From contig NZ_PIPW01000001.1 of assembly GCF_003987215.1 (NCBI RefSeq), forward strand, positions 372,001-436,000: 64,000 nucleotides of DNA. Direction: 5' to 3'. Positions 28,633 through 30,910 of this stretch are shown here, piece after piece (within the stretch, counting starts at the first letter, position 1; each line of letters opens with the position of its first letter). The notes below the pieces were generated by a model, which was given only the letters and a program-made list of their open reading frames with translations, was not told where the DNA came from and did not search any database. The DNA comes from Pseudidiomarina halophila (GTDB lineage Bacteria; Pseudomonadota; Gammaproteobacteria; Enterobacterales; Alteromonadaceae). The position numbers and the translations under genes were made by a program.

Positions 28633-28663
28633 AAAACCCCGCTTCGATAGCGGGGTTTTTTTT
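28633..28663 (+). terminator. Rho-independent terminator of the TonB2 operon
   Basis: The stem AACCCCGC / GCGGGGTT has a seven-base loop and is followed by eight Ts. It separates the TonB2 operon from the EGKCG peptide cluster. Confidence 0.93.
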
Positions 28664-28675
28664 GTGCTTTTGCGC

Positions 28676-28681
28676 TATAGT
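28676..28681 (+). promoter_or_regulatory. Possible -10 element for the EGKCG peptide operon
   Basis: TATAGT lies 40 bases before the precursor gene and downstream of the terminator, so a promoter is needed here. No matching -35 hexamer is apparent, which would fit an activated or alternative-sigma promoter; weak evidence. Confidence 0.3.
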
Positions 28682-28720: not shown

Positions 28721-29137
28721 ATGAATAACATGAAGAAATCTGTAGCAGTAACAGTAGGCGCACTTCTTGCCGGTGGTATGTCGGTTCAGGCAGCGAGCGC
28801 GAACCCGTTCAGCTATTCTGATCTTGGCAGTGGCTATCAGCAAGAACAGAGTAAAGAACGCGAAGCCAAATGTGGTGAAGGCAAATGTGGTGAAGAGCGC
28901 AAAGCTAAAATGGCCGAGAAAGCCAAGGAAGCCAAGTGTGGCGAAGGCAAATGTGGCGAAGAAATGAAAGCCAAAATGGCTGAAAAAGCCAAAGAAGGCA
29001 AATGCGGCGAAGGCAAATGCGGCGAAGACATGAAAGCCAAAATGAGCGAGCATGAGCACGAGAAGAAAGCCGAGAAAGCCAAAGAAGGCAAATGTGGCGA
29101 AGGTAAATGCGGTGAAGGGAAGTGCGGCGGACAGTAG
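28721..29137 (+). CDS. hvfA: EGKCG-repeat RiPP precursor (HvfA/bufferin type)
   Basis: This small exported, low-complexity protein of 138 residues has a signal peptide (1-27, ending ASA) followed by a short neutral segment and a tail (about 45-138) of Lys/Glu-rich linkers carrying nine cysteines (51, 56, 73, 78, 95, 100, 125, 130, 135). Seven of these are in exact EGKCG motifs and two in EAKCG. EGKCG is the motif whose cysteine is modified in Haemophilus HvfA (to an oxazolone/thioamide pair) and in Caulobacter bufferins (to thiooxazole), giving copper-binding peptides. The modifying DUF692 and DUF2063 genes follow in overlapping frames, which makes the call strong. GAGGG precedes the ATG. The modification and metal here are inferred. 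Confidence 0.9.
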   Translation: MNNMKKSVAVTVGALLAGGMSVQAASANPFSYSDLGSGYQQEQSKEREAKCGEGKCGEERKAKMAEKAKEAKCGEGKCGEEMKAKMAEKAKEGKCGEGKCGEDMKAKMSEHEHEKKAEKAKEGKCGEGKCGEGKCGGQ

Positions 29138-29967
29138 GACTTGGTCTGCGCCGCGAATTTCTCGCTGACGTATTGGCGCAAGCTCCTGATGTTGATTTCT
29201 GGGAGCTAGCGCCAGAAAACTGGTTTCCACGAGGCGTCCAGGCTCAACGCACGCTCGATCGTGTGCGTGAGCAGGCGCCTTTAACTAGCCATGGATTGTC
29301 ACTTTCCATTGGCAGTCCTGATCCCCTTGACGTTGACTTCGTAAAAGAGGTCAAGCGCTTCCTCGATCGCTTTGATATTGATATTTACAGTGAGCATCTG
29401 AGCTATTGTTCGGCAGCGGGACATCTTTATGATCTTCTCCCGTTACCCTTCACCGCAGAAGCAGCCTCCTACGTGGCGGAGCGGGTTCGACAGGTGCAAG
29501 ACATCATCGAACGGCCGTTAGTGCTGGAGAACGTATCTTATTATGCCAATTTTGGCGGCGAACTCAGCGAAACGGAATTTATCAGCCAGGTGCTCGAACA
29601 GGCCGATTGCCGCTTATTACTCGACGTAAATAACGTGTATGTGAACAGTGTTAACCACGGTTACGATGCGCACGAATTTATCCGAAGTATGCCCAGCGAG
29701 CGGATTGTTTACGGACATATTGCCGGACATACCGAGGAATATGATGATTTGTTTGTCGATACTCACGGTGCTGATGTTAAGCAGGAAGTCTGGCAACTTT
29801 TAGACTTTGCTTATCAATGTCATGGTGTGTTTCCGACAGTTTTAGAGCGTGACTTTAATATTCCACCGTTGCCGCAGTTGTTGAACGAGGCGAGCAGGGT
29901 AGCGAAGTGTCAACAAAACTACGAGCAGGAGCAACGTGGCGAAGTCCTTTCAACAGACCCAGCTTGA
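29122..29967 (+). CDS. hvfB: DUF692 multinuclear iron enzyme (HvfB/BufB/MbnB family)
   Basis: DUF692 proteins (MbnB, TglH, ChrH, HvfB, BufB) are TIM-barrel, two- or three-iron oxygenases that oxidise peptide cysteines. The 281 residues match the family. Metal-ligand positions are visible: His57 (SHGLS), Glu91-His92 (YSEHLSY), Glu136-Asn137 (LENVSYY), Asp168 with Asn170 (DVNNVYVNS), His199 and His203 (GHIAGH), Asp213 and His215 (DTHG), and Glu242 (LERDFN). The only useful start in frame is GTG 29122, which lies 16 bases inside the precursor gene, implying coupled translation. The precursor just upstream supplies the substrate. Confidence 0.92.
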   Translation: MRRTVGLGLRREFLADVLAQAPDVDFWELAPENWFPRGVQAQRTLDRVREQAPLTSHGLSLSIGSPDPLDVDFVKEVKRFLDRFDIDIYSEHLSYCSAAGHLYDLLPLPFTAEAASYVAERVRQVQDIIERPLVLENVSYYANFGGELSETEFISQVLEQADCRLLLDVNNVYVNSVNHGYDAHEFIRSMPSERIVYGHIAGHTEEYDDLFVDTHGADVKQEVWQLLDFAYQCHGVFPTVLERDFNIPPLPQLLNEASRVAKCQQNYEQEQRGEVLSTDPA

Positions 29968-30685
29968 ATTTGCTAAGTGGCTGCGTTCACCCAATGCCTC
30001 AGCATCTGAGTTCGCTGATATAGAGCCGCGGCGGCTGGCGATTTACCGACGCTTGATTCATTCCAATATCCGGCAATTCATCAGCTCAGGCTTTCCTGTA
30101 CTGCAGTCATTACTGACGGCACAGCAATGGCAGTCGTTGATAGCTGAGTTTGTAGCACAGCACCGGGCGGATTCACCGTTATTTTCGGATATCGGTGCAG
30201 AATTTGTCGCATTTTTATCGCGTGATGGGCTGCAATTGGATGATTATCCGGGCTGGCTATTCGATCTGGCGCGCTATGAGCGTATGGAAGTGGATGTTCA
30301 GTTTGCCAGCCTAAGTGCCGACTATATTCCCTATGTAGAGATGTCTACGACGCAGTTGTTACACCTCAATCCGACCGCTGAGATCGGCATTTTTGACTAT
30401 CCGGTGGCGCAAATTAATAGCGATTTTATGCCACAAGAGCCGCTGCCAACGCCCTATTTCGTGTTGGTGTATCAAACTCCTGCCGGGCAGGTGCAGTTCA
30501 TTGAGCTAAACTCACTAACCGCGTTAGCGCTCGATTTTTTGCAACAAAAGCCGCGTAACCTGTTGCAGCTTAGTGAAGCGCTGGCAAAACAACTACCGGA
30601 TTTTACCGAGCAACAGCTACGAGAAGGCTTTGCTGCGGTGGCTGCGGATCTGGCTGAGCGGTTCGTGTTGTTAGACAAGCCGTAA
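29936..30685 (+). CDS. hvfC: DUF2063 partner protein (HvfC/BufC family)
   Basis: This 249-residue protein has an N-terminal DUF2063 domain (about 5-95: QLEFAKWLRSPN, RRLAIYRRLIHSNIRQFISSGFPVLQSLL, FVAQHRADSPLFSDIGAEFVAFL) that in characterised systems binds the precursor leader or helps deliver it to the DUF692 enzyme. The C-terminal half is a winged-helix-like region (LNSLTALALDFLQQKPRNLLQLSEAL). The start is GTG 29936 with AGGAG five bases upstream, overlapping hvfB by 32 bases. The three genes thus form a tightly coupled unit. Confidence 0.9.
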   Translation: MAKSFQQTQLEFAKWLRSPNASASEFADIEPRRLAIYRRLIHSNIRQFISSGFPVLQSLLTAQQWQSLIAEFVAQHRADSPLFSDIGAEFVAFLSRDGLQLDDYPGWLFDLARYERMEVDVQFASLSADYIPYVEMSTTQLLHLNPTAEIGIFDYPVAQINSDFMPQEPLPTPYFVLVYQTPAGQVQFIELNSLTALALDFLQQKPRNLLQLSEALAKQLPDFTEQQLREGFAAVAADLAERFVLLDKP

Positions 30686-30784: not shown

Positions 30785-30910
30785 ATGGCAAATGATCAGG
30801 ATTTCCGTGACCCTTCGGGTCCGTTAATAGGATGGATTGCAGTGCTAGTAGTTGTAGCTGTGCCGTTGTTACCAGCGGTCTTACGGTGGATTCAGCTGCT
30901 TAGTGCTTAA
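30785..30910 (+). CDS. Small 41-residue membrane protein
   Basis: This short frame (ATG 30785, TAA 30908) begins MANDQDFRDPSGPLIGWIAV and continues as one strongly hydrophobic helix (about residues 14-33) before RWIQLLSA. CGAGG lies nine bases before the ATG, a good ribosome-binding site. It sits 99 bases after hvfC on the same strand and 41 before the receiver gene. I do not recognise the family. It could be an accessory of the EGKCG peptide system or an independent small membrane protein. Confidence 0.6.
   Translation: MANDQDFRDPSGPLIGWIAVLVVVAVPLLPAVLRWIQLLSA

Follow-up and report, generated by a model that had tools for sequence, protein, structure and literature searches.

Which modified peptide would be made by a locus of Pseudidiomarina halophila in which a nine-cysteine precursor is followed, in overlapping frames, by an MNIO (DUF692) enzyme and its DUF2063 partner, and which residues of such precursors do the enzymes impose? 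The locus lies in a stretch of 64,000 nucleotides (contig NZ_PIPW01000001.1, positions 372,001 to 436,000), which we refer to as the window and whose numbering is used below. Its three genes, their family membership and the conservation of active-site and leader segments were observed directly; chemistry, metal, location and role are taken from characterised relatives, and we consider it highly probable that the locus is a three-gene captophorin (HvfABC/oxazolin-type) operon whose thiooxazole-bearing product would buffer Cu(I). Captophorins are an already described system, of which the P. halophila locus is an ordinary member.

Architecture of the locus

The features of the locus, all on the forward strand, are as follows.

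28633..28659, + strand: terminator-like hairpin between the TPR gene and hvfA (terminator prediction and alignment)
28676..28681, + strand: TATAGT, a possible, weak -10 box of hvfABC (alignment of upstream regions)
28721..29137, + strand: hvfA, predicted captophorin precursor of 138 residues with nine KCG motifs (ORF and family model)
28721..28801, + strand: Sec-type signal peptide, residues 1-27, probable cleavage ASA|NPF (by eye)
28802..28843, + strand: leader motif NPFSYSDLGSGYQQ, residues 28-41, candidate HvfC recognition element (Gly-Tyr conservation)
28862..29134, + strand: array of four cassettes (2+2+2+3 Cys) with linkers of 12, 12 and 20 residues
29122..29967, + strand: hvfB, MNIO (DUF692) maturase, GTG start (Pfam/NCBIfam and comparison with 3BWW)
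29936..30685, + strand: hvfC, DUF2063/RRE partner protein, GTG start (Pfam/NCBIfam and a weak 3DEE match)

The original prediction, made from the letters alone, had placed three overlapping frames here, and all three ORFs were recovered on that strand at the positions listed, with overlaps of 16 nt between hvfA and hvfB (29122-29137) and 32 nt between hvfB and hvfC (29936-29967). The GTG start of hvfB falls within the final Lys-Cys codons of hvfA, and an in-frame TGA beginning 9 nt 5' of it closes the hvfB frame. Upstream, the hairpin is kept in all nine aligned Pseudidiomarina regions; in the putative -10 region GCTATA is kept in eight of the nine and CTAT in the ninth, and a promoter scan of the region did not report TATAGT at 28676..28681. 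Among named relatives, Pseudidiomarina terrestris came out nearest, with an hvfB that is 88% identical. A profile search across the genome returned a single MNIO match, and a genome-wide search for a second KCG array returned three matches, all inside hvfA.

The surrounding gene order (DUF3450-ExbB-ExbB-ExbD-TonB-TPR, hvfABC, small ORF, response regulator, apt, dnaX, ybaB, recR, htpG) is largely kept across Pseudidiomarina. No copper gene adjoins hvfABC, the neighbours being the TonB/ExbBD/TPR genes, the response regulator and apt-dnaX. We do not regard the TonB/ExbBD/TPR operon as functionally linked to hvfABC and take its position as synteny only, because the conserved terminator intervenes and because the block also occurs without hvfABC (for example, at L090, L092 and L094-L096).

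Just 3' of hvfC and 5' of the response regulator and apt lies a 41-residue, one-helix ORF (30785-30910; consensus MAxDxxFxDPFN...PLLPAxLxWF), which we considered as an overlooked operon member and rejected as such: 133 of 147 family genomes carry it, including 34 of the 39 genomes with no MNIO, and it is therefore not specific to hvfABC. An alignment of 24 members matched no Pfam or NCBIfam model at E 0.001; its product appears to be an uncharacterised small membrane protein.

The precursor

All nine cysteines of the 138-residue precursor lie in EGKCG (seven) or EAKCG (two) motifs, as the original prediction had counted them, and the export that it assumed agrees with a Sec-type N-terminus seen by eye. 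The precursor scores 66.4 bits (E 1.2e-18) on the HvfA-type KCGExKCG model NF050137, above the cut-off of 19.5; on NF050188, a stricter model of full-length HvfA, it reaches 49.7 bits where the cut-off is 95; no match to DUF2282 was found at E 0.001. Its repeat is 22 residues long, once 30, against the 17 residues described for such proteins together with a beta-helix model (PMC12452194), so that model probably does not apply here. The linkers had been called unusually long and irregular. Among the 66 enzyme-adjacent arrays described below, linkers of at least 12 residues occur in 32 and of at least 20 in 12, and the characterisation did not survive. The absence of an adjacent DoxX-type gene was likewise remarked upon: none does adjoin hvfABC (the single DoxX match in this genome lies on a different contig and, at 60.2 bits, falls short of the HvfX family cut-off of 80), yet such a gene is frequent rather than required in the class, and the fon cluster is also described without one (PMC13097082). 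Neither the linker length nor the lack of DoxX was therefore retained as novel.

Family assignment of the enzymes and predicted chemistry

Both enzymes exceed curated cut-offs: hvfB scores 414 bits on the HvfB family model NF003818 (cut-off 360) and hvfC 228.5 bits on the HvfC family model NF050145 (cut-off 142). Pfam assigns MbnB_TglH_ChrH to hvfB (1.2e-103), and DUF2063 (1.8e-24) and NGO1945_C (3e-21) to hvfC, which also has a weak match to structure 3DEE; the DUF692 and DUF2063 assignments of the original prediction are thus confirmed, and so are its intact metal ligands, since the ligand segments of hvfB, including DVNN, VDTHG and LERDFN, are conserved by eye against the solved H. somni homologue 3BWW. 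Residues reported as essential in HvfB (N175, D242 and H244; PMC13419390) and those on the substrate side of FonB (Arg15, Arg16, Asp249 and Phe250; PMC13097082), placed by eye without the HvfB and FonB sequences, should fall in the hvfB segments DVNN, VDTHG, GLGLRREF and LERDFN. On the BufB model NF050167, hvfB reaches 283.8 bits (cut-off 310), so that of the proposed 'HvfABC/bufferin-type' identity the HvfABC part stands and bufferin proper does not.

It is these scores, the gene order and the conserved active-site segments that carry the HvfABC-type assignment. The operon reading is supported further by an order and overlap style that match published clusters, by the confinement of all nine cysteines to EGKCG/EAKCG, by the invariant position-1 Glu of enzyme-adjacent arrays (below), by the single MNIO and single array of the genome and by the synteny kept in Pseudidiomarina; the sub-threshold score on the full-length HvfA model and the lack of an adjoining copper gene count against it. 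In captophorins (HvfABC, oxazolin, fontiphorin), a class counted at more than 20,000 clusters (PMC13097082), EGKCG cysteines become copper-binding 5-thiooxazoles (PMC13097082, PMC13419390). Precursor, MNIO and partner alone suffice for conversion in the fon cluster, where FonBC fully modifies a mixture of EGKCG and EAKCG, in groups of two and three cysteines (PMC13097082).

By analogy, HvfA would be synthesised with its Sec signal peptide, and HvfC would bind and present it, with the NPF...GY leader as the probable point of contact. HvfB, presumably a mixed-valent diiron enzyme active as Fe(II)/Fe(III), would then oxidise the nine Lys-Cys-Gly cysteines to 5-thiooxazoles, with a mass change of -4 Da each and -36 Da if complete; the modified peptide would be exported, bind Cu(I) and buffer excess copper. 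For the last step the class offers a caution, because a Microbulbifer homologue was reported as not expressed and no copper-protective role could be assigned to it (PMC12538549), and copper buffering is thus not certain for the class.

The original prediction had cited an oxazolone/thioamide pair as the product of Haemophilus HvfA, an assignment since revised to 5-thiooxazole by its authors and by others (PMC13097082, PMC13419390). That HvfBC nevertheless installs such another modification, or modifies part of the nine sites, we regard as very unlikely: other chemistries are known within the same enzyme superfamily (PMC12452194 Table 1) and about five of six HvfA sites were modified on average in vitro (PMC13419390), but the PME1-dependent enzymes characterised in PMC13097082 all make 5-thiooxazole, the oxazolone/thioamide claim for HvfA has been revised, and hvfB falls far below the cut-off of the methanobactin enzyme model MbnB (TIGR04159; 43.5 against 325 bits).

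Arrays with and without a maturase

A search for EGKCG precursors together with DUF692 genes, which the original prediction had suggested, covered 147 family genomes, of which 108 contain an MNIO (PF05114) and 110 a KCG array: 88 have both, 20 an MNIO only, 22 (from 10 genera) an array only and 17 neither. The 22 array-only genomes among 110 compare with 67 of 2583 EGKCG genomes lacking an MNIO in a published survey (PMC12452194 Table 3). Eighteen of the 22 reach a completeness of 90% or more with at most 5% contamination, and DUF2063 was found in none of them, all three controls searched alongside being positive. In a further 20 array genomes the only MNIOs score below the HvfB cut-off; at 13 such loci that we read, the MNIO follows a four-cysteine precursor, DUF2282-like by eye, in nine cases and another cysteine-rich protein in two, and two have no evident precursor. 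An HvfB-family MNIO above the cut-off is therefore present in none of these 42 genomes (22+20), in a search that the P. halophila genome passes. For 17 of these 42 genomes the array sits less than 0.5 kb from the small ORF, that is, in the place of hvfA in P. halophila, with hvfBC missing between.

On a dnaX tree, all 29 HvfB-less array tips fall in one clade of 34, which has no enzyme-adjacent member. The pattern is most simply read as a single loss of hvfBC, with the array still present in 29 of the 34 members. The tree holds 93 tips, was built from one marker (the N-terminal part of dnaX) and is midpoint-rooted and without support values; it leaves out G038, G063, G078, G106, G109 and G135, which yielded no usable sequence. 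Outside the clade, the enzyme-adjacent label was given by default to seven tips (G004, G009, G037, G043, G044, G114 and G138), of which G044 alone was checked (L266).

The persistence of the array suggests either a use for its plain thiols or another modifier. Modification by a maturase encoded elsewhere in these genomes seems unlikely; the KCGEGKCG core is retained over 10 genera with no MNIO, which speaks for it, but neither MNIO nor DUF2063 occurs in any of the 22 genomes, and the only recurrent close neighbour belongs to a housekeeping family. This neighbour is a DusC-like tRNA dihydrouridine synthase gene, found at 18 of 22 loci (L088, L091, L093, L099, L168, L170, L171, L173, L174, L176-L183 and L186), divergent and within about 0.2 kb of the array in 17 and 2.5 kb away at L181. 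We did not adopt it as a replacement maturase; one copy scored 363 bits on NF007838, below the cut-off of 395. We also observed that the DusC-like gene and the enzyme-less array occur in two different genomic contexts, which looks like joint movement of the pair. Array persistence may instead mean that the enzyme-less peptides act unmodified.

Several single loci depart from the common arrangement. Pseudidiomarina planktonica (L045, 5700-6100) keeps hvfB and hvfC and has no hvfA in its place, the gap from the TPR gene to hvfB being about 150-170 bp. Idiomarina tyrosinivorans (L050, 5535-5990) has one EGKCG pair and one ACGG, still beside hvfB and behind a long Lys/Glu/Met-rich stretch. At L261 (genome G007), the gene before an MNIO that shares 38% identity with hvfB encodes a 207-residue, 15-cysteine protein in which no signal peptide is evident.

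Leader and position 1 track the enzymes

We compared the arrays of the two groups residue by residue. Of the 110 array-bearing genomes, 92 were analysed (49 HvfB-adjacent, two of genus g36 and 41 of the HvfB-less clade), leaving out 16 genomes with unextracted arrays, G120, which is masked, and G051, whose array ends a contig and whose MNIO is on a different one. The 49 were joined by 17 of 22 named loci to give 66 enzyme-adjacent arrays, two sets that may share species; the named loci set aside were L035 (taken to be G102, which entered the count as L104), the cut locus L038, the masked locus L042, L045, which has no precursor, and L052, a counter-example described below.

Beside HvfB, position 1 of the xxKCG motif is Glu in all 691 motifs of the 66 arrays; in the 41 readable arrays of the HvfB-less clade it is Glu in 220 of 475. 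The exact leader Gly-Tyr is present in 63 of the 66 arrays (the other three read AY, AY and GF) and in none of the 41; in the orphan array L272 a GY match falls in the signal peptide, not the leader. NPF behaves differently, being kept in 40 of the 41 and exact in just 39 of the 66. Class-wide, arrays were found in 98 of 369 genomes, and among the best-scoring 30 loci (29 new, 28 readable; a non-random set) Gly-Tyr is present in 27 of the 28, the other being cut by a contig end, and position-1 Glu in 220 of 223 motifs. We then took ten genomes having arrays with Gly-Tyr and Glu-1 and no HvfB in the stretch read, and all ten encode HvfB above the cut-off; in at least one of them, G234, the array is at a contig edge, so that the enzyme may truly adjoin it, and in G270 and G273 a further array adjoins the enzyme. 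This result supports, rather than proves, the link to HvfB.

Glu-1 and the Gly-Tyr leader thus seem to be maintained by HvfBC, and because Gly-Tyr tracks the presence of HvfB (63/66 against 0/41, and 10/10 genomes) we propose it as a candidate HvfC recognition element. We give slightly less than an even chance to the fuller reading, in which the Gly-Tyr of NPFxxxxLxxGY is read by the DUF2063 RRE in EGKCG precursors and the enzyme-less arrays are functional exported peptides, either plain-thiol (metallothionein-like) or otherwise modified. Two of its supports are weakened by the contig-edge cases and by the variants tolerated at position 1, since FonBC is blocked by a doubled Arg there and processes single Ala and other non-Pro variants (PMC13097082). 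A survey of RRE recognition found no specific motif for DUF2063 RREs and notes mainly DUF2282 precursors (PMC12710340), so that Gly-Tyr can be put forward as a candidate in the EGKCG branch; for MmrA, leader conservation and a modelled contact with the RRE had been reported already (PMC12538549). In the open-licence literature we found no title or abstract opening that describes the HvfB-less clade or the Gly-Tyr motif.

There is also an appreciable, if smaller than even, chance that HvfC and HvfB recognise the signal peptide or the core, Gly-Tyr having been kept for some other reason and having drifted after the enzymes were lost. HvfA stripped of its signal sequence is barely modified (PMC13419390), a shortened FonA tolerates all Ala variants before the core (PMC13097082), the precursor at L052, which lies beside an enzyme of 47% identity, carries EGRCG/EGSCG and lacks Gly-Tyr, and the HvfB-less clade represents one loss event only. 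Recognition of the signal peptide sits less easily with its persistence, together with NPF (40/41), in a clade where exact Gly-Tyr is gone (0/41); Gly-Tyr in 27 of the 28 readable class-wide arrays and the presence of HvfB in all ten genomes tested for it also speak against this alternative.

Meaning of the comparison

With this locus a class of more than 20,000 clusters (PMC13097082) gains one marine member, but the main value of the locus is the comparison that it opens between precursors living with and without their maturase. The HvfB-less clade is in effect a natural loss experiment, in which the array persists in most sampled members; the comparison suggests that the Gly-Tyr leader and position-1 Glu are residues imposed by the enzymes, and that signal peptide, NPF and Cys-Gly-Glu core are what the peptide itself needs. 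Two questions become testable through it: which feature is read by the RRE of HvfC, and whether EGKCG arrays can bind metal and be protective when left unmodified. NF050137 names the enzyme-less arrays at L088:4352-4837 and L171:4770-5396, in genomes with no MNIO, 'oxazolone/thioamide-modified RiPP metallophore'. Should our reading hold, 'oxazolone/thioamide-modified RiPP' is a misnomer when assigned automatically in this clade.

Comparison with known systems

With oxazolin (HvfABC) of Haemophilus influenzae the locus shares EGKCG pairs, a Sec signal and the HvfB/HvfC pair; the H. influenzae precursor has three pairs (six cysteines) and its operon includes the DoxX-like HvfX (PMC13419390), whereas P. 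halophila HvfA has nine cysteines and longer linkers, with no DoxX adjacent. Like fontiphorin (FonABC, Fontimonas thermophila), it consists only of precursor, MNIO and partner; in both, groups of two and three motifs combine EAKCG with EGKCG, fontiphorin having seven modified cysteines (PMC13097082) against nine candidates here. Bulbicupramide (MmrABC, Microbulbifer) combines EGKCG cassettes with a conserved leader, which is modelled to engage the MmrC RRE, and its product binds Cu(I) (PMC12538549); it differs in its five to eight cysteines, its genus and its neighbours. Bufferins (DUF2282 Buf1, Buf2), finally, have an MNIO with a DUF2063 partner, a Sec signal, thiooxazoles and copper in common with the system predicted here (PMC12452194), but they are built on other precursor families, and P. 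halophila hvfB lies below the BufB cut-off.
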